A DNA stretch of 64,000 nt, from NCBI GenBank assembly GCA_000238815.2, contig AFXB01000004.1, positions 1-64,000 of the forward strand. Reading direction: 5' to 3'. Below are positions 15,713-58,232 of the stretch, piece after piece. The DNA is from SAR116 cluster alpha proteobacterium HIMB100 (lineage in GTDB: Bacteria; Pseudomonadota; Alphaproteobacteria; Puniceispirillales; Puniceispirillaceae). Each line of letters begins with the position of its first letter. Position 1 is the stretch's first letter. The translations under genes were made by a program, and so were the position numbers. Under the pieces are notes generated by a model. It was given only the letters and a program-made list of their open reading frames with translations, made no database searches and was not told the origin of the DNA.

Positions 15713-15733
15713 TGGTTAAATGATAGTCGCTTT

Positions 15734-17311: not shown

Positions 17312-17317
17312 GAACCA

Positions 17318-17824: not shown

Positions 17825-17854
17825 CATCCTCACCATAAAGAAAAATTCAAAGTG

Positions 17855-17884: not shown

Positions 17885-17902
17885 TCTTGATTTTCGATTG
17901 TG

Positions 17903-18877: not shown

Positions 18878-19043
18878 AGTTTCCTCCGTAAACTGGTGCC
18901 GTAATTGAGCATGTTAATCAGGTTTGAGCAACAATTTTATGTTTTGAAATCGATAAAAATAAGGTTATTTCCAAAATATGAGAATATTGAACCGAATCTT
19001 TCCAAAGGTATTTGTAAAAAAAACAGAACAGAAGACCGATGTA

Positions 19044-22728: not shown

Positions 22729-22777
22729 TTTGTGCTCACTTAAGTTAAATTTACCAGTAAGGCTGTCGGCTTTCAGT

Positions 22778-29996: not shown

Positions 29997-29999
29997 ACC

Positions 30000-30431: not shown

Positions 30432-30444
30432 CCGGAGTGATGTA

Positions 30445-43369: not shown

Positions 43370-43435
43370 ATGTGTCAGCTTCAGCCAGGTGAAAACGAAA
43401 AGAAAGTAAATTTTCATGCAAATTCAATCCGTTGA
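43370..43435 (+). CDS. possible 21-aa leader peptide upstream of the galactarolactone-cycloisomerase-like gene
   Basis: A 21-codon frame starts with ATG nine bases after GAGGAGG, the best ribosome binding site in this area. It runs across the start codon of the next gene in another frame (20-base overlap). The enolase-superfamily gene itself has only a weak AGAAAG upstream of its only possible ATG. The leader could couple or regulate its translation. The peptide MCQLQPGENEKK... matches nothing I know. Confidence 0.35.
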   Translation: MCQLQPGENEKKVNFHANSIR

Positions 43436-44564
43436 GACGATAATTTTAAAATCAGATTTGGCGACCCCATTTGCTTTTTCGCAAGGCTGGGTCGGCAAAC
43501 GATGTTGTACGCTTGTGAAAATCACCACCGACGATGGCTTGGTTGGATGGGGCGAGGGGTTTGCACAGGGGCTGGAGCCCCCGGAAATATGCGCTGCTGC
43601 AATTGAGACAGCCTTTGCCCCTATGCTGATTGGACGTAATCCCTTAGACACTGAAAAACTATGGTTTGAGATGTATAACCGGTCTCGTGATTTTGGCCGC
43701 AAAGGGTCTGTGATGGCCGCGATAAGCGCACTGGATATTGCCTTATGGGATATTGCAGGGAAGGCCTATGACCAGCCTATCTATCAGCTTATGGGCGGTG
43801 CAATCAGAGATGAGATAACCCCTTATGCGACCGGATTTTACCGGATAAAAGGCCAGGGCGAAGCAGAACGTCTGGCTGAAGAAGCAATATCTCATTTTGA
43901 GGCAGGCTTTACCCATATGAAGGTAAAATTGGGTTTCGGGGTAGAAGATGATATTGCCGTGATGGCCGCAATCATGAAACAGGTTCAGGGTAAGAAGATA
44001 GACTTCATGGTGGACAGCAATCATGCTTATGGCCGCCCTGAGGCATTGCGTTTGGGCTATGCGCTCGACGAGCATAATTTGCGTTGGTATGAAGAGCCGG
44101 TCATTCCAGAAGATTTAGCCGGATATGCTGAATGCAGATCAAAGCTGAAAACACCTATAGCGGGCGGTGAAAATGAACATGCCTTACACGGCTTTAAAGC
44201 GCTTTTTGAGAATCGGGCTGTTGATATTGCCCAGCCTGATGTGGGATCATGTGGCGGTCTGACGGCTATGCGCCATATCGCTGTTCTGGCGCACAGCTTT
44301 GGTGTCGAGGTTAACCCGCATGTTTGGGGGTCTTCTGTTGCACAGGCCGCTTCTGTTCAGGTTCTGGCCAGCCTTCCGGCTGCCCATCACAGCTTGTTTG
44401 CGCGCCAGCCAATTTTAGAATATGACCGGTCTGATCATCCGTTCAGGCAGCATCTTGTTGCAACCCCCTTATCCTTGGATCAAGGTGTTGTGAAGATAAA
44501 TAAAAGCCCTGGGCTGGGCATCAGCATTCAACAGGACTGCATTGACCGATATCGTGTAAATTAA
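43416..44564 (+). CDS. mandelate racemase/enolase superfamily enzyme, galactarolactone cycloisomerase-like
   Basis: A 382-residue enolase-superfamily enzyme. The KxK base motif is in MKVKLGFGVED, and the metal ligands lie in MVDSNHAYG (Asp), WYEEPV (Glu) and GGENEHA (Glu). The Asp/His dyad is in AQPDVGSCGG and VNPHVWGSS. The spacing and segments such as EYDRSDHPFRQ and the final PGLGISIQQD resemble Agrobacterium Gci, which opens galactarolactone to a keto-deoxy-hexarate. Galactonate-type dehydratase is the alternative, favoured by the DgoK gene 45 bases downstream. The uronate dehydrogenase 7 kb away supports a uronate/aldarate role. Confidence 0.82.
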   Translation: MQIQSVETIILKSDLATPFAFSQGWVGKRCCTLVKITTDDGLVGWGEGFAQGLEPPEICAAAIETAFAPMLIGRNPLDTEKLWFEMYNRSRDFGRKGSVMAAISALDIALWDIAGKAYDQPIYQLMGGAIRDEITPYATGFYRIKGQGEAERLAEEAISHFEAGFTHMKVKLGFGVEDDIAVMAAIMKQVQGKKIDFMVDSNHAYGRPEALRLGYALDEHNLRWYEEPVIPEDLAGYAECRSKLKTPIAGGENEHALHGFKALFENRAVDIAQPDVGSCGGLTAMRHIAVLAHSFGVEVNPHVWGSSVAQAASVQVLASLPAAHHSLFARQPILEYDRSDHPFRQHLVATPLSLDQGVVKINKSPGLGISIQQDCIDRYRVN

Positions 44565-44608
44565 AAACTCGTAATCCTTATCTCCTCTCGTTTTGTCAGG
44601 AGCAAAAC

Positions 44609-45547
44609 ATGTCTGAACGTAAAGAAAAGCCAGCCTTCATTGGTGTTGATTGGGGTACAAGCTCTTTCAGAGCTTGGTTGTTTGCCCCATCAGGAACAGT
44701 GCTGGAAGATGTGCAGGGGCCGTGGGGGATATCCCAGATTAGAATGACGCCCTTCAGACAAATCCTGTTGGAGGCTGTAGGGAATTGGTTACGTCAATAT
44801 CCGGTTTTGCCAATTATAATGTGCGGCATGATTGGCAGTGCTCAGGGTTGGCATGAGGCAGGATATCTCACGGGTACGGTTGGTGTTGGCGAGCTTGCTG
44901 CTGGGGCTGTAAAAGTCGCTGATCCAGAGCTGGAGATGTATATCATCCCAGGCATAAAAGGGCGGTCCGCCGATGATTATAATGATGTTATGCGCGGAGA
45001 AGAAACCTTACTGGCAGGAAGACTGGGACGTGGCCAAGAAGACAAGGCTATATTCTGTTTGCCTGGTACGCATTCAAAATGGATCAGTGTCGAGAAAGGC
45101 CGGGTTGAACGGCTGACAACATTCATGACAGGCGAGTTGTTTCACTTGATGAAAGGGCAATCAATCCTCGCCCCTCTTATAGACAGTGATTCTGACGTAC
45201 GGTTGACCAGCCCAATTTTTGCTGACGGTCTGGCGTTGGCGGCGAGTCCGTCTGGGCTTTTGCATCAATTATTTTCTATCCGTGCTGGCGTTCTGACAGA
45301 GCGGTTTGCGCGTGGTGATGTGCTCACGCTTTTGTCTGCCGTTCTTGTGGGGAATGAATGTAAACATGTAGACATAGCGGGCAAGCCAGCAGCCGGGCTT
45401 CCTGTTACGCTGATGACATCTGGTCAGCTTGGCGATGTCTATCAACAGGCCTTTCAGCTGTTAAATATCGACTATCAGGTTATGGATGCAACAACAGCCG
45501 CTCAGGCAGGTTTATATGCAATTTTCCTGCAATTGCCCGATGCTTAA
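44609..45547 (+). CDS. dgoK: 2-dehydro-3-deoxygalactonokinase
   Basis: A 312-residue sugar-acid kinase of the DgoK family. FIGVDWGTSSFRAWLF is the N-terminal phosphate-binding loop, followed by MCGMIGSAQGWHEAGYL, RGEETLLAG, CLPGTHSKWI and MTGELFHLM, all characteristic. It phosphorylates 2-keto-3-deoxy-galactonate or a related keto-deoxy acid with ATP. A matching KDPGal aldolase is not adjacent; the HpaI-type aldolase at 61.9 kb belongs to another family. An AGGAG ribosome binding site is present. The stop overlaps the convergent TauE gene stop. Confidence 0.92.
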   Translation: MSERKEKPAFIGVDWGTSSFRAWLFAPSGTVLEDVQGPWGISQIRMTPFRQILLEAVGNWLRQYPVLPIIMCGMIGSAQGWHEAGYLTGTVGVGELAAGAVKVADPELEMYIIPGIKGRSADDYNDVMRGEETLLAGRLGRGQEDKAIFCLPGTHSKWISVEKGRVERLTTFMTGELFHLMKGQSILAPLIDSDSDVRLTSPIFADGLALAASPSGLLHQLFSIRAGVLTERFARGDVLTLLSAVLVGNECKHVDIAGKPAAGLPVTLMTSGQLGDVYQQAFQLLNIDYQVMDATTAAQAGLYAIFLQLPDA

Positions 45548-46314
45548 AGCAAACCACTAGCAATCAGCCGCAATCCCAAAATTAAAAACACACTCAGGAC
45601 GATTTTTCGGAACAGGTCCTGAGAGATAAAGCCTCGCATCATCTCTCCAACCCGAAAGCCGATGATCACGGCAGTTAAGCCTAGGACTGATTGCATCGCA
45701 GCTTCAAAGGTTAAAACCCCTGACAAGATAAGACCAGCTGCTAACGGAAAGCAGCCAGCGAGAAATAAAAACCCTGATGCTCCAATAAATTCTTCCTTCG
45801 AAACATTGCGGGCGAGCAGATACATCGCCACCGGCGGAGACCAAATAGAGCTTAGCCCGCCCAAAATACCTGAGAATATTCCGACACCAACCTGCCAGCC
45901 CATATGGCCAGATATAGGAAGCGTAACGCCAAACAGAAGATTAATGGAAAATACGACCATCGCCACACCTATCGCAACAGTCAAAAGAGAGGTGGGATAG
46001 GAGGCGATAAACAAAGACGTGATGAATATGCTGATCATTATAGCCAGCGCAAAATAACGATATGTATAGGCTGTTTTGCGAGGGGATTCTGATCGGAAAT
46101 ATTGCATAATATTTGCGAAAATAATCGGCAGAACCATTAATGAAATGGCAGTTTTAGGGTCAATGAAAATGGTGAGCATGGCCATCGCTGCAGCAGGAAG
46201 ACCGATACCTAAGAACCCTTTAATGACGCCTGAGAAGAAGAAAGCCACAAGGATAACCGGTATGTAATGAACCGGAAGGCCTGGTAACAAAAACAGCTGA
46301 AAAAATTCCGTCAC
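45544..46314 (-). CDS. TauE/SafE family anion exporter (probable sulfite or sulfonate export)
   Basis: A 256-residue membrane protein with about eight hydrophobic segments of the TauE/SafE (DUF81) family. FSGVIKGFLGIGLPAAAMAML and GIFSGILGGLSSIWSPPVAMYLL are the two half-repeats. It is the last gene of the operon tctC-B-A, SauS-like, SauT-like, TauE. Members export sulfite, sulfoacetate or other anions, and desulfonation pathways often end with such a gene. The start is GTG. Confidence 0.87.
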   Translation of the reverse strand: MTEFFQLFLLPGLPVHYIPVILVAFFFSGVIKGFLGIGLPAAAMAMLTIFIDPKTAISLMVLPIIFANIMQYFRSESPRKTAYTYRYFALAIMISIFITSLFIASYPTSLLTVAIGVAMVVFSINLLFGVTLPISGHMGWQVGVGIFSGILGGLSSIWSPPVAMYLLARNVSKEEFIGASGFLFLAGCFPLAAGLILSGVLTFEAAMQSVLGLTAVIIGFRVGEMMRGFISQDLFRKIVLSVFLILGLRLIASGLL

Positions 46315-46346: not shown

Positions 46347-47870
46347 TTACTGATTATCATAGACCAGATCATGAAGCTTTAACCGCTGCACCTTTCCCGA
46401 CGGTCCTTTTGGAAGGTCATCAAGAACATGAATTTTATCTGGTGTTTTGAATTTCCCCAGCCGGTCTGTACAATGCTGTATAAGACCGGTTTCTGCTGCC
46501 TGCTTGCCGGGTTTAAACCGAATGCAGGCTTCAACCCGCTGCCCGTAATTCTCACATGGAACGGCAAAAGCAGCGGCCTCTAAGATAGATTCATGCTCAA
46601 GCAAGGCTTCGTCGATTTCGCGAGGGGCAATATTTTCACCGCCTTTGATGATTAATTCCTTTATGCGGCCAGTAACAAAGACATAACCTTCCTCATCCAT
46701 ATGCCCTAAATCGCCGGTCCGCAGCCACCCTTCAGCCGTTATTGTTTTGGCGGTTTCTTCTGGTTGATGAAGATAACCCTGCATCACATTAGCTCCACGG
46801 ACTAAAATTTCGCCTGTGACCAGCGCTTCAACAGAGGTCAGCTCTTCGTCAGCAATCATCACCTCATTACCGACAGCCTGTCCAGGCGAGCCAATTTTCC
46901 GTTCGCCAGGCGGAAGCGGGTTCGACAGGATTTGCGCTCCGGTTTCAGTCAGGCCCATCGTTTCAATAATAGGGATGCCAAAACGTGATTCAAAGCGTCT
47001 GTGTGTTTCTGGTGGCAGAGGTGCTGACGCTGATCGGGCAAACCGCAGCCGGCCTGCATCTATATCGGGTGTGTTGTCATCATTCAGCAGATAGGCGAAT
47101 AGGGTGGGCACTGCACTGAACCAACTTACATTATTCTGCCTCACCTGCGACCAGAAAGAAGAAACAGAAAATTTATAGGGCATCACCAGCCCGCTGGCAG
47201 AGACCAACGTCCCCATCACGGTCACACACATTCCATTAATATGATAGATAGGCAAAACACACAGGCCAGTATCAGCAGAAGTAATCTGATGAGCCGTAAC
47301 CACATTCTCACCTGCAGCCAATAAGTTAGCATGTGAGAGCACCACACCTTTCGGGTTGCCAGTCGTCCCGGATGTGTACATCAGTAATCCTGGGCTGTCC
47401 GCGGTGGGTAGTCCGTTATCCATTTGTGCTGAGTTGCTTAAGCTTTCAGGCCATTCTGGTCCATTTTCAGGATGCAGAGAAATAACCTGAATTTCAGCAT
47501 CCATGCTGCCCAGAACCTCATCAATCAGTGCTTGATTGTCCGGCGCACAAAATAGGATTTTTGCCTGGCAATGTCCAAGAACGTAAGACATCGCCTTAAT
47601 ACCTGAGACGAGGTTCAACGGTGTTGCAACAAAACCGGCAAAGGTTACGGCGGCGAACAATAAGGTACTGGCGATGCAGTTATGTGCAGCAATAGCGACC
47701 GGGTCACCAGGAGCAAGGCCCAGCCGGTTCAGCTGGTTAACAAGACTGTTTACCCTGTGTTGGGCGTCAGCCCAGGTAAGCGTAACACCGGTTTCAGGAG
47801 AGGTAAGCCAAACAGCTTCGCCATTTGATGCAGCATTCTTCGCAAGTTGCGCTGGTATGGTCTGGATCAT
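46347..47870 (-). CDS. acyl-CoA ligase (AMP-forming), SauT-like candidate sulfoacetate-CoA ligase
   Basis: A 507-residue ANL-superfamily ligase. The ATP motif is YTSGTTGNPKG (about residue 165), followed by MGLTETGAQ, TGDLGHMDEEGY with the hinge, and the C-terminal catalytic Lys in PKGPSGKVQRL. It forms a CoA thioester from a carboxylate. Its start overlaps the stop of the SauS-like gene (ATGA), mirroring the sauS-sauT pair of Cupriavidus necator, in which sulfoacetate is activated to sulfoacetyl-CoA. The ligand is inferred from this context only. Confidence 0.85.
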   Translation of the reverse strand: MIQTIPAQLAKNAASNGEAVWLTSPETGVTLTWADAQHRVNSLVNQLNRLGLAPGDPVAIAAHNCIASTLLFAAVTFAGFVATPLNLVSGIKAMSYVLGHCQAKILFCAPDNQALIDEVLGSMDAEIQVISLHPENGPEWPESLSNSAQMDNGLPTADSPGLLMYTSGTTGNPKGVVLSHANLLAAGENVVTAHQITSADTGLCVLPIYHINGMCVTVMGTLVSASGLVMPYKFSVSSFWSQVRQNNVSWFSAVPTLFAYLLNDDNTPDIDAGRLRFARSASAPLPPETHRRFESRFGIPIIETMGLTETGAQILSNPLPPGERKIGSPGQAVGNEVMIADEELTSVEALVTGEILVRGANVMQGYLHQPEETAKTITAEGWLRTGDLGHMDEEGYVFVTGRIKELIIKGGENIAPREIDEALLEHESILEAAAFAVPCENYGQRVEACIRFKPGKQAAETGLIQHCTDRLGKFKTPDKIHVLDDLPKGPSGKVQRLKLHDLVYDNQ

Positions 47871-49276
47871 TTGCCGAACTCATCCCAATAATCGGCAAAT
47901 ATGTCTTCCAGCTCGGGTTTGTCTTCTGGGATGACCCGCACCACATTGACGTGATTGACAAAATGCGTCCAGTTGAGATTTTCATCAATGGAATTGCCGC
48001 CCCAACTGCCGCAGCCCATGGACAAAGAAAAAGGCATGCCATTATTGAAAAAGCCGCCAGTGGCAAAGCAATGTGCCTGATTTACAATGACCCGGCAGGT
48101 GCGCGCATGTCTGGCCAGGTGATGCGCACGGCTGTCATCTGAGGAATGCAGACCCAAAGAATGTCCTGCGCCCTGATAATTTTGGATGGTTATTGCTTTT
48201 TCCACAGCTTCATCAAAATCCTGTGCGCGGTGAAGTGCCAGGAAACGCGCCATCTTTTCGCCTGTAAGCGGGTTCTGCGGGCCAATATCTGTTTGCGGTA
48301 AAAGCAAGAAGCGCGTGTTTGCCGGAGCAACTTTGTCAAGGCCTGTTGCCGCAAGCACTTTGTCGATATCCTGTGCCAGCAAGGTTGTCGTCATTTTCCC
48401 ATTCTGCCAGTGAATATCCTGTACGGTCTGGCTTTGCGCGTCAGTCAGAAGAAATCCGCCTTCCTCAGCAAGGGCGGCCAGCATTTCATCATAAACGGCA
48501 TCTACCACCACTACCGCATTTTCAGAGGAACAGGAGGTGGCATTATCAAATGATTTAGACGCAGCAATCTTTGCTGCAGCTGCCCTTAGATCGGCTGTTT
48601 CGTCAATGATGGTCACAACATTACCTGCACCTACACCAATCGCCGGGGTGCCTGACATATAGCCTGCCCGCACGTTGCTTTGCGATCCTGTAACCACCAC
48701 CAGATCAGCAAGCTGCATCAACCGCTGTGTTTTTGGTTTCGAAGGTGGGGCAGGTACCATTTGAACCAGCTCAGCAGGCAGCCCAAGCTTGGCTAATGCG
48801 TCATGAATATAGCCCAAAAGCACAGTCGCCGGTTTCACCCCTTTTGGGCTGGGTGCAATGATGATCGCATTACCTGTTTTCAGCGCATTGATGATGTTAT
48901 TCACCGGCGTGGCAAGTGGATTAGTAGACGGGACAATGGCGGCAATAACGCCCTTTGGCCGCAGATAAGTGGACAAGCCTTTTGCGTGGTCATCCCCAAT
49001 ATGGCCGAAGCTTTTTACATCTTTCAGATCCCGCATAAGGCCAAGAGTTTTATTGTGGTTTTTCCTGATTTTATCAGCCACATTACCTAAGCCGGTCTCA
49101 GCAACAGCCATGGTGGCGAGCTGGTCGTTGCGTGTTGGTTCCATCAGCACCCATGCAACCGCTTGACATGCTTTGTCAAACAAGTCCTGCGAGCCATTCT
49201 CTTCATAATAATGTTGTGCAGCCCGAGCGGCAGCCACCAATTCATCTATGCAAGTTGTATCATCTGCACCGGTCAT
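47867..49276 (-). CDS. sauS: CoA-acylating aldehyde dehydrogenase, SauS-like (sulfoacetaldehyde dehydrogenase)
   Basis: A 469-residue protein of the acylating aldehyde dehydrogenase branch (EutE/AdhE relatives). The N-terminal KGVIAAIVPSTNPLATPVNN and FDNATSCSSEN with the nucleophile Cys are typical. The long C-terminal QAHCFATGGFFNNGMPFSLS and GSWGGNS are seen in sulfoacetaldehyde dehydrogenases as I remember them. It would reduce sulfoacetyl-CoA, made by the adjacent ligase, to sulfoacetaldehyde. No xsc gene is in the window, so the next step must lie elsewhere. Acetaldehyde or malonate-semialdehyde type activity is the alternative. Confidence 0.75.
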   Translation of the reverse strand: MTGADDTTCIDELVAAARAAQHYYEENGSQDLFDKACQAVAWVLMEPTRNDQLATMAVAETGLGNVADKIRKNHNKTLGLMRDLKDVKSFGHIGDDHAKGLSTYLRPKGVIAAIVPSTNPLATPVNNIINALKTGNAIIIAPSPKGVKPATVLLGYIHDALAKLGLPAELVQMVPAPPSKPKTQRLMQLADLVVVTGSQSNVRAGYMSGTPAIGVGAGNVVTIIDETADLRAAAAKIAASKSFDNATSCSSENAVVVVDAVYDEMLAALAEEGGFLLTDAQSQTVQDIHWQNGKMTTTLLAQDIDKVLAATGLDKVAPANTRFLLLPQTDIGPQNPLTGEKMARFLALHRAQDFDEAVEKAITIQNYQGAGHSLGLHSSDDSRAHHLARHARTCRVIVNQAHCFATGGFFNNGMPFSLSMGCGSWGGNSIDENLNWTHFVNHVNVVRVIPEDKPELEDIFADYWDEFGK

Positions 49277-49312: not shown

Positions 49313-50803
49313 TCATGCTTTTTGTTCTGGTGACCGGAAAGCCTGATAAACGCCAACTCCCAGTGTCAGAATACCAGCCAAAATCAACAATGAGCAAATC
49401 GGACGAGACAAATAAGCCACCAGATCATAATGAACCATCTGCATGCCTTGAGCAAAATTCTGCTCGCCGATCTTACCTAAAATGATGCCCAAGACAATCC
49501 CTGGAATAGAGTATCCTGACCTGCGCAGCAAAAAGCCAATGATGCCAGCGATGAACATCACCACAACATCCAGGACTAAGCCGCGTCCGATATAAGCCCC
49601 AATACTGGCCAGCAGAAGGATGAGTGGCGCCAGAAACTGGAATGGGATTTTCAGCAAATAAAGTATTGTCTTTGTTTCCAGTATGCCGACAAACAGGATT
49701 GACAGATTGGCATAGAACATGGCTGCAAATACAACCCAGATAAGGTCAGGTGAATTATAGAAAACCAGAGGGCCAGGTTCTAGGTCATGCATCTGGAAAA
49801 CCGCGACCATCATTGCGGTCAGCGCGCCGCCAGGAAGCCCTAGAGCAAGAAGCGGGATCATTGCTGCACCTGTTGCAGCGTTATTGGCCGTTTCGGAAGA
49901 GATCACACCTTCGATGTTCCCTTTGCCGAAACTTTCCTTATCTTTTGACCATCTAACCGCTTCACCATAACCCATGAAGGCAGCTAATGTTGCCCCAATC
50001 CCCGGCAGGATGCCGCAGAAAAAGCCAACAAGGATTGAACGGAGAACAGCAATCTTCTGCGCCCAAAGCTCAAAAATAGTGGGGAAAGACATCCCTACCC
50101 TTGGCGTATGGAAAGTGCCTGTAGCCCGTTTTTCTGCCTGCACAAAAATTTCTGAAACGGCAAAGAAGCCCAAAATTGCAGGCACAAAGGCTATGCCTGC
50201 GGCCAAATCGGCAAAGCCAAAATTATACCTATTGATCCCTCCGACCGGATCCTGGCCAATGGTGGCAATCAAAAGGCCGAGCAGAACAGATAACCAGCCC
50301 TTCCAAATGGTGCGACCACCTACAGATGATGCAACAGCAAGACCAAAGAACACCAATGCAAAAATCTCAGGAGGGCCGATATTCCGGATTGCCCAAGTGG
50401 CCAGCGGCTGGGTGGCTGCCATCATCACCAAAGCAGATGCAACACCACCAATCGCCGAACACAGAACCGCAGCACCGACCGCCTTGCCAGATTTGCCCTG
50501 CTGAGTCATCGGATAGCCGTCAAAAGCAGTTGGCGCATTTTCAGGTGCACCTGGAATGTTGAATAAAATAGCGGTTATGGCGCCGCCATAGGTGCCTGTA
50601 CAATAAATTACCGCAAACAGCATTACCCCTTGTGCGGGCGATAAATCTGAGGTGAAGGGCAGTAAGATTGCCGCCAGTGTGAGCATGCTGACACCGGGAA
50701 TAGCCCCGAATAACATACCACCAACAACGCCAAAGAAGAATATGGCCAGAGTGAACGGGTCACCAAAGAGCGCTGAGCTGCCTGTGAGAAAATTTTCAAT
50801 CAT
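49313..50803 (-). CDS. tctA: tripartite tricarboxylate transporter large subunit TctA (second system)
   Basis: A 496-residue TctA with about twelve membrane segments. GAIPGVSMLTLAAILLPF, AILFNIPGAPENAPTAFDGYP, GILPGIGATLAAFMGYGEAVR and SETANNAATGAAMIPLLALGLPGG are the family blocks. It sits 6 bases after tctB and 36 bases before the SauS-like gene, so it is the importer of the proposed sulfonate operon. In the described sau cluster the importer is an MFS protein (SauU); a TTT system here would be a replacement. Confidence 0.93.
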   Translation of the reverse strand: MIENFLTGSSALFGDPFTLAIFFFGVVGGMLFGAIPGVSMLTLAAILLPFTSDLSPAQGVMLFAVIYCTGTYGGAITAILFNIPGAPENAPTAFDGYPMTQQGKSGKAVGAAVLCSAIGGVASALVMMAATQPLATWAIRNIGPPEIFALVFFGLAVASSVGGRTIWKGWLSVLLGLLIATIGQDPVGGINRYNFGFADLAAGIAFVPAILGFFAVSEIFVQAEKRATGTFHTPRVGMSFPTIFELWAQKIAVLRSILVGFFCGILPGIGATLAAFMGYGEAVRWSKDKESFGKGNIEGVISSETANNAATGAAMIPLLALGLPGGALTAMMVAVFQMHDLEPGPLVFYNSPDLIWVVFAAMFYANLSILFVGILETKTILYLLKIPFQFLAPLILLLASIGAYIGRGLVLDVVVMFIAGIIGFLLRRSGYSIPGIVLGIILGKIGEQNFAQGMQMVHYDLVAYLSRPICSLLILAGILTLGVGVYQAFRSPEQKA

Positions 50804-50809
50804 ATCAGC

Positions 50810-51367
50810 CTACCATAATTGCTGAAGGTCATTGTTAAGACGCAAAATAAATGCGCTGTAATCATAAAATGGCGAAACATTGCCTTGTGGAAGAGGGGCA
50901 TTCAATACCACCATAAACAGGCCCAGCAGCAAAGCATATAAAAGTGCAGTTATGCCCAAGATCCATTTCCAGCGACGCTCTCCAAAAATGACGATAATAA
51001 GGGCAATGAAAAATGGTGTGGCAAAGTAAAACCCCACAGGTTTCAAAGAAAGAGCAAATAAAAACGGGGTACCCAGAACGGCCAGAACTTTTACGATAGC
51101 TGAAATGTTATCATAACTACCTGTCTCGTCCTCATCTGCAATCCCAACACGTCCTGTTTGTATCGCAGAACCATGTTTATACTGATAATAAAAATTACCG
51201 ACCGTTACCAGCAGCATAAGACCGATAACAACGCGTGGCCAGCCTGTTGCCCCAAAGATGTAAATTTCAATCGGTTGATTAAATTCAAAAGAAAATCCAA
51301 AAAATATAACCGCAATAGACAGCCAGACGGCGCCTTCTGTCAGGTGTGATTTCGTGAGCTTACCCAT
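50810..51367 (-). CDS. tctB: tripartite tricarboxylate transporter small subunit TctB (second system)
   Basis: About 185 residues with four hydrophobic segments in the usual TctB arrangement, including the GATGWPRVVIGLMLLVTVGNF segment after helix 1. An acidic loop (ADEDETG) lies between helices 2 and 3. The ATG at 51367 is used; a TTG at 51382 is possible. Neither has a strong ribosome binding site. It is separated from tctC by a long hairpin. Confidence 0.85.
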   Translation of the reverse strand: MGKLTKSHLTEGAVWLSIAVIFFGFSFEFNQPIEIYIFGATGWPRVVIGLMLLVTVGNFYYQYKHGSAIQTGRVGIADEDETGSYDNISAIVKVLAVLGTPFLFALSLKPVGFYFATPFFIALIIVIFGERRWKWILGITALLYALLLGLFMVVLNAPLPQGNVSPFYDYSAFILRLNNDLQQLW

Positions 51368-51415
51368 AAGATATTGTACCAAAAATGAAGGGATGTTTAG
51401 TGTAAGTGAAGAGAC

Positions 51416-51466: not shown

Positions 51467-52489
51467 TTACTTAACGTTCAGGCCCATCTGCTTATACACT
51501 TCGCGGTATTGCGGAATGGTTGTGTTGATCAGCTCGATAGACCCTTGTGTGTCACGATAGCTGTCGATAACTGTCATAAACTTTGACTCGTTAAACTTCT
51601 GGTAGCTGTCCTGACAATAGCCACGCTGAAACGCCCACTGCAGCCATTCAACGCGGTCAGCCGGAGCGTCTTTATGGACGTAAAAGCCACGGAAACGCAG
51701 CAGCGGTTCGAAGTCCATGCCCATTTCTCTGTGGGTAGGCACATCAGCAAAAACGCCCGGACGTTCGTTGAAAATCGTCAAAATTGGCTTGAAGTCGCCT
51801 GAGTCCAGAAACTTGCGAACGTCACCTGGCTGCTCGAACAAAGCGTCAACCTGACCGCCCAACAATGCCCCATAACGTGGTGCACCCTTATCAAAAGAAA
51901 TCTGTTGAATCGTCATATCAGTGGCGTCGGTAATGAATTTCATCGTTACCCGTTCCATTGAACCTTCTTTTGACACATTGGCGATGGTTGCCTTCCCATT
52001 TTGGGCTTTCACCCAGGCAACAAATGACGGCCAGTCAGTGTATCTGGTTTCATTTGTGCGGATGTAAATCTGGGAAAATGTCACTTGTGATGTGACCAGT
52101 GGGATCAGGTCTTCAGCTGGGTGTGGGCGGCTTGAATCCAATGCATGAGCTGATGAGGCATCATCAATATGTTCAAGAACAGTATAGCCATCTGTTGGTG
52201 CTGCCATGTAGGCCGTCATCCCAACGGTGCCAGACCCGCCTGATTTGTGATCTCTGTTGATAGACGCACCGGTCAGCTCAGTTACTGCCTCAGCCATAGC
52301 TGCTGCGACCTGACCTGACCCTCCAGCAGGACCGTATGGCACGATCATTGTCAGAGCGCGATCAGGAAACCCGCCTGGCTTATCCATGCTGGCTTCTTTG
52401 ACTTTACATTCAAATGCGTTGGCAGCTGATACCGACAGCGCCATAAATGACGCGACCGCAGTAGCTGATACCAAATTTCTTAATTGCAT
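51467..52489 (-). CDS. tctC: tripartite tricarboxylate transporter substrate-binding protein TctC (second system)
   Basis: About 340 residues from the ATG at 52489, which has a strong GGAGG five bases upstream. A signal peptide covers residues 1-26 (cleavage near ANA). The Bug/TctC binding loop reads MIVPYGPAGGSGQVAAAMAE, differing from the usual GG-x-x-D, and a second Cys-containing C-terminal region is present (QRGYCQDSYQ). It is first in the proposed sulfonate operon. The altered binding loop fits an unusual ligand, though this is only suggestive. Confidence 0.9.
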   Translation of the reverse strand: MQLRNLVSATAVASFMALSVSAANAFECKVKEASMDKPGGFPDRALTMIVPYGPAGGSGQVAAAMAEAVTELTGASINRDHKSGGSGTVGMTAYMAAPTDGYTVLEHIDDASSAHALDSSRPHPAEDLIPLVTSQVTFSQIYIRTNETRYTDWPSFVAWVKAQNGKATIANVSKEGSMERVTMKFITDATDMTIQQISFDKGAPRYGALLGGQVDALFEQPGDVRKFLDSGDFKPILTIFNERPGVFADVPTHREMGMDFEPLLRFRGFYVHKDAPADRVEWLQWAFQRGYCQDSYQKFNESKFMTVIDSYRDTQGSIELINTTIPQYREVYKQMGLNVK

Positions 52490-52606
52490 TATTTCCTCCG
52501 TTGCTTTTTGAGACTCAGATTGAAGCAAATTATTTCTAAATTGCAAATTTTTAATTTTTCTTTTTGCCTGTCAAAATTCGTCCTATACTTCATTTCTTTG
52601 GTTTTT

Positions 52607-52658: not shown

Positions 52659-53402
52659 ATGTCGCATCAACATAAAACATTATCGGTTACTGTCAGGCGC
52701 GACACGGGAAATGGAAGTCAGGACCAAACCTTTGAAGTCCCTGAACAAGATAGTCAGACTGTTTTGGACGTTGTCACCTACATCCAGGAGTATTTAGACC
52801 CGACACTGTCTTATCGTTTCGCTTGTCGAGTGGGTATGTGTGGCTCATGCGGTATGATGGTGAATGGTGAGCCGCGCTGGACCTGCCGCACACATGTGAA
52901 GAAGGTAACTGGGGCCTCTAAGTCACTGACGATCGCGCCGCTGCGAAATCTGCCTGTGATAAAAGACCTCGTAGTGGATATGGATCCGTTCTTTGATAAG
53001 TGGGTTCGTGCAGGCGGTGTGCATCACCCGACCGCAACTCGGCATGAACCAATTCAGAAAATCGATGAAGCTGGTGCTGACCGCCAGGAGGCAAATGAAG
53101 CGATTGAATGTATCAATTGCGGTGTATGTTATGCGGCCTGTGACGTTGTTGGGGCGAACCCGGACTATTTTGGACCTGCAGCGCTGAACAGAGCCTGGTC
53201 GTTGGTGAATGATGTAAAGACCAGCCATGAGGGTCAGATTTTTGATGCAGTGAACAGCCATGCAGGTTGTCATAATTGCCATGCACAGCAGGGATGTGCC
53301 CGGTATTGCCCTAATGAGCTCAACCCGTCAGCATCGATAGCCGGGTTGAAGCGCAAGGCAGCCGGACATGCGTTAAAAAAGCTGTTGAGGGGGGGTAAAT
53401 GA
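52659..53402 (+). CDS. succinate dehydrogenase/fumarate reductase-like iron-sulfur subunit
   Basis: A 247-residue SdhB/FrdB-type protein. The plant-type [2Fe-2S] site is CRVGMCGSCGMMVNG with a fourth Cys in RWTC. The ferredoxin part has CINCGVCYAAC and CHNCHAQQGCARYCP for the [4Fe-4S] and [3Fe-4S] centres. It passes electrons from the flavoprotein to quinone through the membrane subunits. It is the first gene here, so the order is B-C-D-A instead of the usual C-D-A-B, indicating a specialised complex separate from the TCA-cycle enzyme. Confidence 0.9.
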   Translation: MSHQHKTLSVTVRRDTGNGSQDQTFEVPEQDSQTVLDVVTYIQEYLDPTLSYRFACRVGMCGSCGMMVNGEPRWTCRTHVKKVTGASKSLTIAPLRNLPVIKDLVVDMDPFFDKWVRAGGVHHPTATRHEPIQKIDEAGADRQEANEAIECINCGVCYAACDVVGANPDYFGPAALNRAWSLVNDVKTSHEGQIFDAVNSHAGCHNCHAQQGCARYCPNELNPSASIAGLKRKAAGHALKKLLRGGK

Positions 53403-53728
53403 TAACCGCTCATCTGTATCTGTTGCAACGGTTTACCGCGCTTATAATGGCGCCGCTTGTGTTAGGGCATATTGCGGTGATGATTTATGCTGTCCAAGGT
53501 GGCTTATCTGCTTCTGAGATATTGGGCCGCACCCAAGGCAGTGTTTTTTGGGCTCTGTTTTACGGGTTGTTTGTTGTGGCTGTATCAGTGCATGCCGCGA
53601 TTGGTGTGCGTACCATTCTGTTTGAATGGGCGCATCTGCGCGGGGCTGCTTTGGAAGTGTTCAGCTGGCTATTCTGCTTCGTCCTGTTAGGGCTTGGCCT
53701 GTTTTCTGTCTATGCGGTAACATCATGA
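53399..53728 (+). CDS. SdhC-like membrane cytochrome subunit
   Basis: A 109-residue protein with three hydrophobic segments. Two helix-embedded His residues (LVLGHIAV, about 24, and VSVHAAIGV, about 65) could ligate heme b. It overlaps the iron-sulfur gene by 4 bases (ATGA) and the next membrane subunit by 4 bases. It resembles the membrane anchors of succinate:quinone oxidoreductases, in short form. Confidence 0.8.
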   Translation: MITAHLYLLQRFTALIMAPLVLGHIAVMIYAVQGGLSASEILGRTQGSVFWALFYGLFVVAVSVHAAIGVRTILFEWAHLRGAALEVFSWLFCFVLLGLGLFSVYAVTS

Positions 53729-54087
53729 CCCTTTCTTCACTACCCGCACATCGCAGACATTTATTATGGTCTGCGTTTCTCATCCACCGTTTGTCTGGCG
53801 TGTTGTTGGCGGTTTTTTTGCCATTGCATTTTTGGGTGTTATCGCAGGCCTTGCGCGACCCGGAAGCGTTGGATGGGTTTTTGAAATGGACAGATTTTTG
53901 GTATGTCAAGCTGGCAGAATACGGGTTGGTATTTTTGCTGGGAGCGCATTTGTTTGGCGGGCTGCGGCTGATGGCTTTAGAGGCGCTGCCTTGGTCTCCG
54001 GCACAAAAAACATGGGCAGCAGCGGCGTTGGCTTTGTCTTTTAGTGTGGCAACTTTGTTTTTCTTATCGGCGGTGAATTATGGCTAA
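53725..54087 (+). CDS. SdhD/SdhC-like second membrane anchor subunit
   Basis: A 120-residue protein with three hydrophobic segments. The start LIHRLSGVLLAVFLPLHFWV carries the H-R-x-S/T-G quinone/heme motif of succinate dehydrogenase cytochrome b556 subunits, and GAHLFGGLRLM is the third-helix part. It overlaps the preceding stop (ATGA) and the flavoprotein start. With the previous subunit it anchors the complex to the inner membrane. Confidence 0.8.
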   Translation: MTLSSLPAHRRHLLWSAFLIHRLSGVLLAVFLPLHFWVLSQALRDPEALDGFLKWTDFWYVKLAEYGLVFLLGAHLFGGLRLMALEALPWSPAQKTWAAAALALSFSVATLFFLSAVNYG

Positions 54088-55840
54088 TTTGTCTCTTGAG
54101 TCTATCGAACGACATGATACCGATATTCTGGTGATCGGGTCAGGCGGAGCAGGATTGTTTGCCGCCCTTCATGCCCAGAAAACAGCCCCTGAACAGAAGC
54201 TTACGCTGGCAGTCAAAGGCCTGATTGGTAAATGTGGGTGTACCCGCATGGTGCAGGGCGGCTATAATGTTGCGCTGGGAAATGGGGATACAGTTGAACG
54301 CCATTTCATGGATACCATTATTGGCGGAAAATGGTTGCCGAACCAAGATATGGCCTGGCGGTTATGTGAATTGGCGGTGGAACGAATTACTGAGCTTGAA
54401 AATGAAGTCGGGTGTTTTTTTGACCGCAATTCTGATGGCAGTTTGCATCAAAAAGCCTTTGCCGGACAGACCGCTGACCGGACTGTCCATAAAGGTGATC
54501 TAACCGGCATTGAGATTATCAACAGGCTGATGGAACAGGTGTTAAGCCGCCCGGTTGAAAAGCTTCAGGAACATCGGGCGTTAGCCTTAATCCCAGCGCG
54601 TGGCGGTGAGGGCTTGTCGGGCGTTTTGTTTATCGATATGCGCACTGGTAAATTTCGGTTTGTTCGGGCCAAAACAGTCCTGATGGCGATGGGCGGCGGC
54701 CCCACCATGTATCGTTATCAGACACCATCCGGAGATAAAACAATGGATGGGCAGGCTATGGCTTTACGTGCTGGGCTGCCGCTTCGTGATATGGAGATGG
54801 TTCAGTTTCACCCAACAGGACTTCTGGCCGGGGATCATACGCGGATGACGGGAACGGTTCTGGAAGAAGGGCTGCGCGGAGCAGGTGGCCAATTGTTAAA
54901 TAGCCAAGATCACCGGTTCATGTTCGATTACGATGCCAAGGGCGAGAGAGCAACCCGTGATGTGGTTAGCCGTGCTATCTATGCAGAGATGCGCAAAAAT
55001 AACAGCTCGCCCAATGGCGGTGTGTATATCTCTATGAGCCATCTTGGCCCCGATTTTGTTCGATCAAAATTTCCCGGGATGGTGAAACGCTGTGCAGATA
55101 GCGGTTTCGACCTTGCTGCAGGAAAAGTGGAAGTTGTGCCCACAGCTCATTACTTGATGGGTGGGGTTGTGGTTGATGTTGACACACGCACAGAGATGCC
55201 TGGCCTGTATGTTGCCGGTGAGGACGCAGGGGGTGCGCATGGGTCAAATCGTCTTGGCGGAAATGGTGTTGCCAATTCAACGGTCTATGGCGGTGTTGCT
55301 GGCGACGTGATGGCACTTGATGCGCAAGCAATGACAACACTTCGTGATCCTGATGAAGGGGTTTTAGAAGCCGAGATAATGCGAGCGTGTCAGCCATTTG
55401 CAAAACCAGTTGCGCCACTTGCTGAATTGCGCAGGGAGCTGCGTCAGGTCATGTGGGATGATGTGGGCGTTATGCGAACTGCAGCCGGGATCAATCATGG
55501 TCTTAGCGCCCTGGAAGATATCAGCCGCGAATTGGATAATAGCGGTGTTGATGACAGCACACGCGCGTTTAATCTGACATGGCATGATTGGCTGAATTTG
55601 CGCAATCTGGTGGACATGTCTAAAGTGATTGGTGAAGCGGCCTTGATGAGAGAAAATTCAAGAGGCGCTCATTTCCGGGAAGATTTTCCTGAAACAGGTG
55701 CGCTGGATGACTCCTACTTCACAAATGTCCGCCAGACTGGCGGAGATCTGAAAGTGACACGCGAGGCAGTGGCCTTTACAATCGTGAAGCCTGGAGAAAC
55801 TATACTGCCTGCTGATGAACCGGAATCACTCGTTGGCTAG
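54080..55840 (+). CDS. succinate dehydrogenase/fumarate reductase-like flavoprotein with non-canonical FAD site
   Basis: A 586-residue SdhA/FrdA-type flavoprotein. FAD motif ILVIGSGGAGLFAALHA is at residues 15-31. Dicarboxylate-site residues are conserved: QFHPTG, EEGLRGAGG, DVVSRAIY, HYLMGGVVVD and the Arg of SNRLGGNG. The residue that carries covalent FAD in SdhA (His in S-H-T-x-x-x-Q-G-G) is replaced: the segment reads CGCTRMVQGG, placing Cys where His is expected. FAD is then probably not His-linked, as in L-aspartate oxidase or thiol:fumarate reductase. It oxidises or reduces a succinate-like dicarboxylate; the context suggests a dedicated catabolic role. Confidence 0.88.
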   Translation: MANLSLESIERHDTDILVIGSGGAGLFAALHAQKTAPEQKLTLAVKGLIGKCGCTRMVQGGYNVALGNGDTVERHFMDTIIGGKWLPNQDMAWRLCELAVERITELENEVGCFFDRNSDGSLHQKAFAGQTADRTVHKGDLTGIEIINRLMEQVLSRPVEKLQEHRALALIPARGGEGLSGVLFIDMRTGKFRFVRAKTVLMAMGGGPTMYRYQTPSGDKTMDGQAMALRAGLPLRDMEMVQFHPTGLLAGDHTRMTGTVLEEGLRGAGGQLLNSQDHRFMFDYDAKGERATRDVVSRAIYAEMRKNNSSPNGGVYISMSHLGPDFVRSKFPGMVKRCADSGFDLAAGKVEVVPTAHYLMGGVVVDVDTRTEMPGLYVAGEDAGGAHGSNRLGGNGVANSTVYGGVAGDVMALDAQAMTTLRDPDEGVLEAEIMRACQPFAKPVAPLAELRRELRQVMWDDVGVMRTAAGINHGLSALEDISRELDNSGVDDSTRAFNLTWHDWLNLRNLVDMSKVIGEAALMRENSRGAHFREDFPETGALDDSYFTNVRQTGGDLKVTREAVAFTIVKPGETILPADEPESLVG

Positions 55841-55882
55841 TTATGCCGGAACCAGGGTCTTTCTGAGAAACAGGAGCGAGAT

Positions 55883-56851
55883 GTGATCGCAATTGAGACG
55901 ATTCAAAATACAGCTGAAATACTGATGGAACAGGCAGCGATCGAAATTCCGGAAGATTATCTGAATGGTCTGAAACAGGCGGCCCAGGATGAGGAGGGGG
56001 ACCTATCCTCATTTGTACTAGAGGCAATGCTGCAGAATTACGAGGCTGCCAAACAAGACCGAAGTGCAATGTGCGGCGATACAGGCACGCCGCGCTGGTA
56101 TGTGAAAATGGGAAATGAAACCCAGATTGAGGGCGGGCCTATCGCGCTTGAGGCTGCATTGCGCAGAGCAACAGCTAATGCAACACAATCCGTGCCTTTG
56201 CGGCCGAACCGTGTCCATCCTCTGTGGCGGACAGACCATGATAATAATGTTGGTATTGGGGCTCCTGAGATTGAATATGGATTTGAGCCTGGCGGGGAGT
56301 GGATTGACCTTATCACCGTTCATAAAGGTGGCTTGTTTGGTACTGATTATCGAATGCTGTTCCCGTCAGATGGTATTGAGGGGATCAAACGGTTCTATCT
56401 GGATAGTTTAATAGCTTTTGGCAAGCGTGGACTGGCCTGCCAGCCTGCGATCATCGGTATCGGGCTGGGCGGCACAAAAGATGCCTGTATGGTCTTGGGA
56501 AAACGGGCGGCTTGCTTGCGGGTTGTCGGGGATGAGAACCCAGATCCGAAAATCGCTGAACTTGAGCGCGAATTCAAAGAGCTTGGCAATTCTATCGGTA
56601 TGGGGGCGATGGGATTTGTCGGTAAATCCATGGTTATTGATTGTCATATAGAAGTGGGCTATTGCCACACCGGGGGAATGCAGATGTCTGTTCATGCATT
56701 TTGCCTTTCTTCACGTCGCGCGGTGGCCCGGATATATGCAGATGGCCGTGTAGAGTTTCGTACAGACCCTGACTGGTTCACGCCTTATCAACGGCGTGAG
56801 ACAATCGATTGGGAGGACACAGCATGGCAAAGCCACGTCAAATCAGGCTGA
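55883..56851 (+). CDS. class I fumarase / tartrate dehydratase-like alpha subunit
   Basis: A 322-residue Fe-S hydro-lyase alpha subunit (TtdA/fumarase N-terminal domain). The start is GTG behind CAGGAG, since an ATG two bases earlier is followed by a stop. The Cys residues for the [4Fe-4S] cluster are in AMCGDTGTPRW, TKDACMVLG and VGYCHTGG. GIGLGGTKD is the Gly-rich loop. It lies 42 bases after the SdhA-like gene and overlaps the beta subunit. It would add water across a C=C bond of a dicarboxylate produced by the SdhA-like enzyme. Confidence 0.88.
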   Translation: MIAIETIQNTAEILMEQAAIEIPEDYLNGLKQAAQDEEGDLSSFVLEAMLQNYEAAKQDRSAMCGDTGTPRWYVKMGNETQIEGGPIALEAALRRATANATQSVPLRPNRVHPLWRTDHDNNVGIGAPEIEYGFEPGGEWIDLITVHKGGLFGTDYRMLFPSDGIEGIKRFYLDSLIAFGKRGLACQPAIIGIGLGGTKDACMVLGKRAACLRVVGDENPDPKIAELEREFKELGNSIGMGAMGFVGKSMVIDCHIEVGYCHTGGMQMSVHAFCLSSRRAVARIYADGRVEFRTDPDWFTPYQRRETIDWEDTAWQSHVKSG

Positions 56852-57492
56852 GCACGAACCCGACTAAAGATGCGCTTGCTGAGTTGCGGCTTGGTGATGT
56901 GGTTTATCTTGACGGCACAATCTATACTGCGCGTGAGGGGGTTTATAAACGTGCCCTAGAGGATAAGGCAAATTTGCCTGTCGATTTGCCTCAAAGTAGT
57001 GCAGCTAATTTTCATTGTTCACCTGCGGCGTCTATGAACTCTGACGGCAGCTTTAATCTGGGCTCTGTGACTGCCACAGCCTCATTTCGCTTTTCGAAAT
57101 GGATTGGTGACTGGATGGCTCAGACTGGCGCTAAACTCATCATCGGCAAAGGCGGGATGAGCGCGGAGGATTACAAACAGCATTTTGTGCCAAATGGTGC
57201 CATTTATCTGACTACGGTTGGCTATGGTACGGGGGCGCTTTTGGGGCGCGGCGTTAAAGGCGTTTCAGATGTGCATTGGCACACTGAGCTGGGGCTGGCG
57301 CAGGCAATGTGGGTTATTGATGTTGAAAAAATGGGTCCGTTCATTGTTGAAAGTGACCTTCAGGGCAATTCTTTGTTTGAACGTGAGAACGCAAAAATTG
57401 CGTCCAGCTTAGAGGGTTTGTATGAAGGCACGCGTCCAGCTACACTTAAACGCTATGGCGAAACAGATGACCGGAAAGACGAGCTGATTTAA
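56824..57492 (+). CDS. class I fumarase / tartrate dehydratase-like beta subunit
   Basis: A 222-residue beta subunit (TtdB/fumarase C-terminal domain) starting at the ATG at 56824, behind GGAGG, inside the alpha gene. GDVVYLDGTIYTAREG at the N-terminus and IGKGGMS are family marks. The active-site segment that usually reads G-P-T-T-x-x-R-M-D is altered here to SVTATASFRFSKW, keeping only the Arg. This departure suggests a substrate other than plain fumarate or tartrate. It converges on the second TauE-type gene with a 4-base TTAA stop overlap. Confidence 0.85.
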   Translation: MAKPRQIRLSTNPTKDALAELRLGDVVYLDGTIYTAREGVYKRALEDKANLPVDLPQSSAANFHCSPAASMNSDGSFNLGSVTATASFRFSKWIGDWMAQTGAKLIIGKGGMSAEDYKQHFVPNGAIYLTTVGYGTGALLGRGVKGVSDVHWHTELGLAQAMWVIDVEKMGPFIVESDLQGNSLFERENAKIASSLEGLYEGTRPATLKRYGETDDRKDELI

Positions 57493-58232
57493 AGCACGGT
57501 TCGAGCCAGCAGCACACAGCCCGACACTAACATCAAAATGATCAATAAGCGTCTGAAACTATCTGTCTCCAGGCGCTTAAATATTTCTAATCCAAAATAT
57601 GCAGACGCTAACCCAACCGGAAGCGCCATCAAAAACCAGGTTAAAACCTGTGTGGTATAGACACCGCGGGCAGCTAAAAACAATACAGCCAAAAATAATA
57701 TCACAACATTGAACGGCTGTAATACCGCCCGTGTTTCTTGTTTTGGCCAGGGGCGCAATGAGCACCAAAAAGTGGGCAGGGCCCCAGACAGGCCAGCGAT
57801 TCCGCCTAAAATGCCGCCCAGAAACCCGATCAGACCATCGAGTATTTTGGGTGTCGCAGTCAAGGTGGGCAGCGCTGAACGAAAGGCAAAGAAGCCGCCA
57901 TAGCTGATCATAAATCCTGCAACAATCAATTTCAGAATATCTGCATCGATAAAGCTGAGGATATGGACGCCCAAAGGCACACCGAATACAGCCGGGATTA
58001 AAAAACGAGCAACCCGCCCCGGTTTGTTAAGAATTTCTTGTCTGACTAGCCATAACCCTTGCAGGCCAGTTGCGACAGACATTACCAAGATGAGCGCAAC
58101 AGCTTCAACAGTAGGCAGGATTTGCAACCAAAACCCAAGTGTAAACAGGGCAGTCCCAAACCCAGCCAGACCATTTATAAAACCGCCTGCAGCAGCGCCT
58201 GTTAACAACAATATAACAAATTCTACGGTCAT
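57489..58232 (-). CDS. TauE/SafE family anion exporter (second copy)
   Basis: A 247-residue, eight-segment membrane protein of the TauE/SafE family. AAGGFINGLAGFGTALFTLGF and GFLGGILGGIAGLSGALPTFWCSLRPW are the paired Gly-rich half-repeats. It faces the SdhA/fumarase-like operon and is preceded by a 77-aa gene with a 4-base overlap. It could be a second sulfite or organic anion exporter serving the same locus. Confidence 0.87.
   Translation of the reverse strand: MTVEFVILLLTGAAAGGFINGLAGFGTALFTLGFWLQILPTVEAVALILVMSVATGLQGLWLVRQEILNKPGRVARFLIPAVFGVPLGVHILSFIDADILKLIVAGFMISYGGFFAFRSALPTLTATPKILDGLIGFLGGILGGIAGLSGALPTFWCSLRPWPKQETRAVLQPFNVVILFLAVLFLAARGVYTTQVLTWFLMALPVGLASAYFGLEIFKRLETDSFRRLLIILMLVSGCVLLARTVL

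Follow-up and report, generated by a model that had tools for sequence, protein, structure and literature searches.

The DNA analyzed here, a stretch of 64,000 nucleotides from the SAR116 cluster alphaproteobacterium HIMB100 (contig AFXB01000004.1, positions 1 to 64,000; "the window" below means this whole stretch), carries at positions 52659-57492 six genes that encode a complex resembling succinate dehydrogenase (SDH) and, directly after it, the two subunits of an enzyme resembling class I fumarases. An original prediction had described this set as SdhB-C-D-A plus two class-I-fumarase-like subunits, and open reading frames (ORFs), hidden Markov model (HMM) scans and the gene order in relatives all agreed with that description. 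The six genes (FAD, flavin adenine dinucleotide) are:

52659..53402, + strand: SdhB-like iron-sulfur subunit (ORF and HMM scans; TIGR00384 188.6 bits, cut-off 88; Fer2_3 over its gathering cut-off)
53399..53728, + strand: SdhC/D-type membrane anchor 1 (Sdh_cyt, PF01127, 31.7 bits over 25.8; TIGR02968 31.4 bits, below its cut-off of 41.8)
53725..54087, + strand: SdhC/D-type membrane anchor 2 (Sdh_cyt 38.9 bits over 25.8, scanned from 53656; TIGR02970 48.8 bits, below 52.3)
54080..55840, + strand: SdhA-like flavoprotein (FAD_binding_2 and Succ_DH_flav_C over gathering cut-offs; Cys for the FAD-linked His, Glu for a pocket Thr, and a six-residue insertion)
55883..56851, + strand, GTG start: class-I-fumarase-like hydratase, alpha subunit (PF05681 225 bits; TIGR00722 212.2 bits over 100.65; solved chain 7xky_A, E 7.6e-55)
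56824..57492, + strand: hydratase, beta subunit, with altered GPTTxxRMD and RDxxH motifs (PF05683 82.8 bits; TIGR00723 118.1 bits, below 145.15; 7xky_B, E 5.2e-28)

The start of anchor 2, at about 53725, is an ATG picked by eye within a listed ORF of 53626-54087, and for the hydratase beta subunit, whose listed ORF opens at a TTG at 56809, the ATG at 56824 is the probable start. Fer2_3, two Sdh_cyt domains, FAD_binding_2, Succ_DH_flav_C, Fumerase and Fumerase_C all passed their Pfam gathering cut-offs in the window proteins. Successive genes overlap throughout, save for a 42-base gap between the SdhA-like gene and that for hydratase alpha. The best sequence matches of the SdhA-like flavoprotein among solved chains were to complex II and fumarate reductase.

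A GTDB species collection contained 295 pattern-matched stretches with an encoded relative. We took the best 80 of these and added 44 from other genomes (11 of 13, 18 of 20 and 15 of 15 regions found, hand-picked from search matches, some of them for low identity), giving 124 loci and, after three duplicates were dropped, 121 unique ones. Counts of loci are not random-sample rates, because similarity decided which 80 were kept and we selected the 44 ourselves. For residue counts, we used sequences whose match covered more than 85% of the query (111 SdhA, 122 alpha, 118 beta); two of the loci searched, L041 and L229, come from one genome. Wherever all six genes were detected, which was the case in 102 of the unique loci, they lie on one strand in the order B-C-D-A-alpha-beta. 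All three cluster motifs were present in SdhB from 107 of 107 extracted relatives, and the pattern H...G.R in anchor 1 from 101 of 102, while a second His pattern that we tried occurred in 52 of 102.

Close relatives of hydratase alpha were found in 42 of 136 genomes of the order to which the window belongs (27 of 43 among the better genomes) and, in a sample of 387 genomes from across the class, in 29. The carriers, among them marine and soil bacteria, include SAR116-type, Roseobacter-type, Paracoccus and other Alphaproteobacteria, as well as two bins labelled Granulosicoccaceae, and an operon conserved across so many genomes is therefore not a product of chance. The hydratase pair also occurs without adjacent sdh genes, in loci L128, L130, L205, L208, L214 and L215. 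Among seven genomes that have the hydratase and lack adjacent module sdh genes, the module SdhA was found elsewhere in four, searches of G088 and G375 turned up only an SdhA of the canonical type, and a search of G005 (83% complete) gave no SdhA at E 1e-50.

We then compared the SdhA-like flavoprotein with canonical enzymes. The residues aligned with His232, Glu245, Arg287, His355 and Arg390 of FrdA (numbered without the initiator Met), which we take to have the catalytic and dicarboxylate-binding roles that they have in FrdA, were retained in 71 of 71 module SdhA sequences, chosen by ORF length; this bears out the prediction that the dicarboxylate-binding His and Arg residues are kept. Also as predicted, the position of the FAD-linked His is occupied by Cys, in 111 of 111 extracted sequences. 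Two features went beyond the prediction, both of them again in 111 of 111: the position of Thr244 in the dicarboxylate pocket is occupied by Glu, so that the canonical pocket Thr is missing, and the loop after HPTG has 14 residues rather than the eight of the SdhA and FrdA references, an insertion of six residues. Within this loop, T-[RK]-M-T-G was present in each of the 15 commonest variants. Predicted structures had a mean predicted local distance difference test score of 55.8 for SdhA and 63.6 for hydratase beta, too poor to stand behind any claim. The flavoprotein looks to have a remodelled substrate pocket, fixed across the family, with its redox catalytic residues retained.

Identity of the module SdhA to the SdhA of its own genome and to Escherichia coli SdhA, FrdA and NadB was only 31-34%. 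In a maximum-likelihood tree of 37 sequences, 22 module SdhA rows were split from 15 canonical SdhA, FrdA and NadB rows with support of 100/100, placing the module in a clade of its own with respect to SdhA of the tricarboxylic acid (TCA) cycle. This was the second tree, which leaves out L177 (a mis-extracted ORF) and the module rows L112, L127 and L223; in the first, of 41 rows including L177, support for the module was only 67/87. Because NadB forms a long branch, and long branches may be drawn together, only the split between module and other sequences was used.

The hydratase alpha subunit has three motifs with aligned Cys residues, FCLSSRR (122 of 122 relatives), ACQPA (120 of 122) and MC.DTG (122 of 122), and these cysteines are presumably the ligands of a [4Fe-4S] cluster. 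The motif CQDT is changed to CGDT in 106 of 122 and to CADT in 16 of 122. The original prediction held that the beta subunit had lost the GPTTxxRMD pattern. The literal motif has indeed gone from both the window protein and the family consensus, being replaced by VTATASFRF in 112 of 118 relatives, but its first Thr and its Arg still align, and GKGGM, with its Lys, is present in 118 of 118. The RDxxH motif has become REGxY in all 118. Three reference proteins were used for this motif comparison, and identity to the fumarase and tartrate dehydratase references was 24-29% for alpha and 26-37% for beta. Because the aligned Cys, Thr, Arg and Lys residues are retained while the motifs around them have changed, the chemistry of the hydratase, like that of the SdhA-like subunit, looks to have been kept and the pocket rebuilt; the residues are taken to have the roles of their counterparts in fumarase and SDH.

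The genome from which the window comes contains a second SdhA and SdhB with two anchor-like ORFs, forming the separate canonical sdhCDAB cluster for which the original prediction had proposed a search. That cluster adjoins ORFs resembling malate dehydrogenase, succinyl-CoA synthetase and 2-oxoglutarate dehydrogenase (CoA, coenzyme A), named by eye. There is also a separate single-chain class I fumarase (a frame of 547 residues, 267.8 bits), and no FumC scored over its cut-off in this genome. Neither of the results that would have spoken for a TCA role, a lack of other sdh and fum genes or a place within the TCA clades, was obtained, the tree covering SdhA only. With separate sdh and fumarase genes and an SdhA clade of its own, the predicted dedicated desaturation-hydration module for a succinate analogue, distinct from the TCA cycle, is supported and remains the best reading of these genes.

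The genes around the operon in the window bear on the nature of that analogue:

57489..58232, - strand: TauE/SafE-type exporter, convergent with the operon (PF01925 102.6 bits)
51467..52546, - strand: TctC-type binding protein of a tripartite tricarboxylate transporter, divergent from the operon (PF03401 54.8 bits over 27)
50810..51382, - strand: TctB-type small membrane protein (PF07331 53 bits over 29.1)
49313..50803, - strand: TctA-type membrane protein (PF01970 429.4 bits over 28.9)
47867..49276, - strand: SauS, acylating sulfoacetaldehyde dehydrogenase (NF047625 648.8 bits over a cut-off of 600)
46347..47870, - strand: AMP-forming acyl-CoA ligase, probably a sulfoacetate-CoA ligase (PF00501 260.1 bits)
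45544..46314, - strand: second TauE/SafE-type transporter (PF01925 73.9 bits)

Among the 25 matches listed for the acyl-CoA ligase, no substrate-specific NCBIfam model was over its cut-off. The divergent set of transporter, SauS and CoA ligase probably serves the use of sulfoacetate. The same set also adjoins the operon in L226 and L227 (TctB was outside the search panel), where the TctA gene is 96% identical, and in L106, a Paracoccaceae bin, SauS and the ligase are likewise found upstream of it.

Further off in the window, an enolase-superfamily gene and a kinase-like gene occupy 43416-45547; the kinase-like gene is 44-45% identical to one that immediately precedes the operon in L034 and L044. 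A second transporter cluster at 13015-21292 (names partly by eye) contains an enzyme dependent on thiamine diphosphate (ThDP), 24-27% identical to the ThDP enzyme found near the operon elsewhere, and TctA/TctC-like genes, followed by a CaiB-type CoA-transferase (35-36% identical to one inside a Litoreibacter operon) and a PrpF-like gene. Also by eye, a DUF849-like gene adjoins an MttB-family-like methyltransferase at 21934-24328, and at 29118-30864 a persulfide-dioxygenase-like metallo-beta-lactamase gene is followed by two small ORFs, perhaps for sulfur transport.

Neighbors across the 121 unique loci were counted with a tblastn panel under hand-set identity limits, since antisense ORFs in GC-rich loci had disturbed clustering based on ORFs. 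The commonest were LysR (60 loci), TauE (51), TctC (31) and TctA (29), with a tricarboxylate-type transporter adjoining the operon in 33. A ThDP enzyme resembling 2-hydroxyacyl-CoA lyase (nearest solved sequence 7pt1) was present in 27, an enolase-superfamily gene in 14 and a CaiB-type CoA-transferase in 13. Less frequent were SsuB-type (11), SsuA-type (9), MaoC-like (9), HpcH/HpaI (9), YeiH (8) and MmgE (8) genes, succinate semialdehyde dehydrogenase (SSADH; 4), alcohol dehydrogenase (4) and SauS (3). At least one of TauE, YeiH, SsuA and SauS occurred in 53 of the 121 loci, and in 43 of the 83 stretches of at least 15 kb. The YeiH-type exporter scored 217.7 bits on PF03601 (over 24.5) and 134 on TIGR00698, below 232.6; the SsuA-family match in L089, at 82.3 bits, was below the cut-off of 163.5. 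A gene resembling the sulfite dehydrogenase SorA adjoins the operon in four loci, L076 (11658-12773, used as the query), L098, L112 and L206, the others being 58-60% identical to the query; its best model score of 179.6 bits is far below the SorA cut-off of 600. In seven loci (L035, L036, L039, L043, L047, L049 and L064), the CaiB-type CoA-transferase gene lies between those for hydratase alpha and beta, hinting at a CoA-thioester branch together with the 2-hydroxyacyl-CoA-lyase-like enzyme.

Locus L222, from another family of the class, has genes for a zinc-dependent alcohol dehydrogenase, a short-chain dehydrogenase/reductase (SDR), a HisD-like protein, ComD, ComE and an LldD-like protein preceding a convergent operon; 3 bases separate the end of the LldD-like gene from the operon, and ComE lies at a distance of 1.2 kb. 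ComD and ComE passed their curated cut-offs (156.9 bits over 147.95 and 232.9 over 221.5, respectively), and the HisD-like protein was over TIGR00069, a model that cannot separate HisD from HpsN. Four Paracoccus loci (L077, L089, L091 and L099) likewise have the zinc alcohol dehydrogenase, SDR and HisD-like genes grouped near the operon. HpsN is a protein of the histidinol dehydrogenase type (PMC11382572), HpsO is an SDR, and zinc is described in HpsP (PMC11131964). The neighbors in L222 and Paracoccus, belonging to these families, would therefore meet the module at sulfolactate and sulfopyruvate. With SauS and ComDE over curated cut-offs and TauE, SsuA-type and SorA-like genes close by, the setting of the operon in several lineages appears to be one of sulfonate catabolism. 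The gene neighborhoods point to the sulfonate isostere 3-sulfopropionate as substrate, in preference to the substituted succinates that the original prediction had proposed for assays.

We also considered sulfonate genes elsewhere in the genomes. The genome of the window has ComD and ComE over their cut-offs and Xsc at 928 bits over 676.4, enough to take sulfopyruvate to sulfite. Its ComDE genes (L197:7782-10293) stand beside an opposite-strand gene for a pyridoxal phosphate-dependent (PALP) enzyme, of the threonine synthase type by eye. Within the order, Xsc was over its cut-off in 31 of the 42 operon-bearing genomes and 15 of the 94 others, and SauS in 23 of 42 and 8 of 94. When the comparison was confined to the window's own family minus one genus that lacks both operon and Xsc, SauS was found in 22 of 32 and 6 of 19 (p 0.019).

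Taking these observations together, we think it probable that the module is dedicated to catabolism of 3-sulfopropionate, a succinate isostere with a sulfonate in place of one carboxylate; substrate and activities are inferred. In the first step, the SdhABCD-like paralogue of complex II would oxidize 3-sulfopropionate to 3-sulfoacrylate, passing electrons to quinone. In the second, the heterodimeric [4Fe-4S] class-I-fumarase-like enzyme would add water next to the carboxylate to give 3-sulfolactate, the sulfonate counterpart of malate. Sulfolactate would then be oxidized to sulfopyruvate, which ComDE would convert to sulfoacetaldehyde and Xsc to acetyl phosphate and sulfite; the genes for this third stage are present, and their link to the module is proposed. 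Sulfite may leave via TauE or be oxidized, perhaps by the SorA-like protein encoded beside the operon in four loci. The sulfoacetate genes of the window would join the same route at sulfoacetaldehyde. More speculatively, in some relatives the CoA-transferase and the 2-hydroxyacyl-CoA-lyase-like enzyme may carry sulfolactate to sulfoacetaldehyde.

The literature is consistent with such a route. According to the available text of PMC11489063, a Konstanz thesis describes use of homotaurine by Roseovarius nubinhibens via 3-sulfopropionate, then sulfoacrylate and sulfolactate, intermediates that fit both proposed reactions; that text names no genes, which the thesis itself may do, and states that, apart from this thesis, there was no earlier report of 3-sulfopropionate being degraded by bacteria. 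Elsewhere this degradation is said to need further study (PMC9594981), and for Bilophila the mechanism is termed unclear (PMC12890257). In the literature searched, insofar as its text was available, no gene assigned to 3-sulfopropionate degradation was found; nor was any report found linking fumarase with sulfopropionate, sulfoacrylate or sulfolactate. We regard the module as two known enzyme classes in a new functional variant, which probably acts in a 3-sulfopropionate pathway.

Several observations weigh against 3-sulfopropionate. Strongest among them is the setting of the operon in a group of SAR116-type genomes within that order, where its neighbors are MmgE/PrpD, MaoC-like and HpcH/HpaI genes, partly with CaiB, a set that looks like one for breakdown of itaconate or citramalate, and one member of this group (G088) keeps the hydratase, no module SdhA having been found in it. 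Overall, 68 of the 121 loci have no TauE (of either type), YeiH, SsuA or SauS in the stretch, as is true of 40 of the 83 stretches of at least 15 kb. Neighboring SSADH and alcohol dehydrogenase genes are few, at four loci each. SSADH-type enzymes may also serve sulfolactaldehyde (PMC11131964), and members of the TauE family are not exporters of sulfite alone, one being termed a probable 3-sulfopropionate exporter (PMC11489063). In the window's own genome, ComDE and the PALP gene beside it might serve sulfonate biosynthesis, weakening the argument from ComDE there, and a search for a sulfolactate dehydrogenase yielded two LldD-family genes only, of 36-38% identity. The association of the operon with Xsc held up less well within the family: with the same genus left out, Xsc was found in 22 of 32 operon-bearing genomes and 11 of 19 others (p 0.55). 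Because significance was lost there, the association can be mostly shared ancestry and is weak evidence. Finally, 11 of the 42 operon genomes have no Xsc over the cut-off. Five of these reach 90% completeness or more: in G072, G093 and G123 nothing came near to Xsc, and in G086 and G132 the matches were partial (638 and 429 bits).

We weighed four other explanations. The first is that the substrate is sulfosuccinate, which the SDH-like complex would oxidize to sulfofumarate; addition of water at the sulfonate-bearing carbon would give 2-hydroxy-2-sulfosuccinate, the bisulfite adduct of oxaloacetate, which would break into oxaloacetate and sulfite. The six genes, a transporter for a tri-anion and a sulfite exporter would then make a complete pathway, in keeping with the tricarboxylate-type transporter (33 of 121 loci), TauE (51 of 121) and the lack of any further enzyme that recurs in every lineage, and the enolase-superfamily gene (14 of 121) would make sense if the substrate is chiral. 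This leaves unexplained SauS, the ComDE and LldD-like genes of L222, the 2-hydroxyacyl-CoA-lyase-like enzyme (27 of 121) and the CoA-transferase inside the operon in seven loci. We know of no natural source of sulfosuccinate, and on balance consider this explanation unlikely.

A branched C5 dicarboxylate would be handled by conversion of methylsuccinate to mesaconate and then citramalate, followed by CoA transfer and cleavage of citramalyl-CoA to pyruvate and acetyl-CoA. Class I fumarases can act on mesaconate, and the MmgE/PrpD (8), MaoC-like (9) and HpcH/HpaI (9 of 121 loci) genes beside the operon, in some cases with CaiB, would fit this scheme, as would retention of the hydratase without the SDH part in G088. 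Among the loci examined, however, that gene set is restricted to SAR116-type genomes of the window's order, the recognizable neighbors elsewhere being sulfonate genes, and TauE, SorA-like, YeiH, SsuA, SauS and ComDE neighbors are left without explanation. We judge it improbable as an account of the module.

The hydratase might instead be the desulfonating enzyme. Here 3-sulfopropionate would again be the substrate, but water would be added at the sulfonate carbon, giving 3-hydroxy-3-sulfopropionate, which would fall apart spontaneously into sulfite and malonate semialdehyde. Genes for handling sulfite lie right at the operon (TauE in 51 of 121 loci, SorA-like in four), three operon genomes that are 93-97% complete have no near match to Xsc, and the hydratase has pocket motifs unlike those in the three reference proteins. 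The class I mechanism, however, sets the hydroxyl next to the iron-bound carboxylate, which gives sulfolactate; ComDE is found adjacent to the operon, and sulfolactate is named in the thesis route as cited in PMC11489063. Direct desulfonation is accordingly a doubtful proposition, and there is only a slim chance that the module combines a complex II paralogue forming 3-sulfoacrylate, as an SDH with cysteinyl or non-covalent FAD, with a fumarase-fold hydratase that desulfonates via a bisulfite-adduct product. Lastly, the module might be an ordinary second SDH and fumarase, serving the TCA cycle as a differently regulated spare. This would account for the fold families and for retention of every catalytic residue checked, but is very improbable given the separate clade, the pocket changes in 111 of 111 sequences, the 31-34% identity to SdhA, FrdA and NadB, the separate canonical genes and the patchy presence (42 of 136 genomes in the order, 29 of 387 in the class).

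If 3-sulfopropionate is the substrate, complex II and a class I fumarase would have moved together onto the sulfonate isostere of succinate, with specific changes in their pockets. C3 sulfonates represent a large flux of the organic sulfur cycle, and the six genes provide a concrete candidate for 3-sulfopropionate degradation. In genome annotation, care is needed not to take them for the sdh and fum genes of the TCA cycle.

The module shares with complex II (SdhABCD, FrdABCD) its four-subunit make-up, the cluster motifs of SdhB and the catalytic His, Arg and Glu residues; it differs in its B-C-D-A gene order, the Cys in place of the FAD-linked His, the Glu in place of the pocket Thr, the six-residue insertion and its separate clade. 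The hydratase resembles the two-subunit fumarate hydratase 7xky and TtdAB in having two subunits, aligned cluster cysteines and, in the beta subunit, the Thr, Arg and Lys residues. Compared with E. coli TtdA and TtdB, it is 29% identical in alpha and 37% in beta, with the GPTTxxRMD, RDxxH and CQDT motifs changed. To our knowledge, neither the SauS-Xsc pathway for sulfoacetate nor the HpsNOP/ComDE pathway for 2,3-dihydroxypropane-1-sulfonate and sulfolactate contains an SDH-like or fumarase-like step; genes of the kinds that make up these pathways adjoin the module or share its genome.

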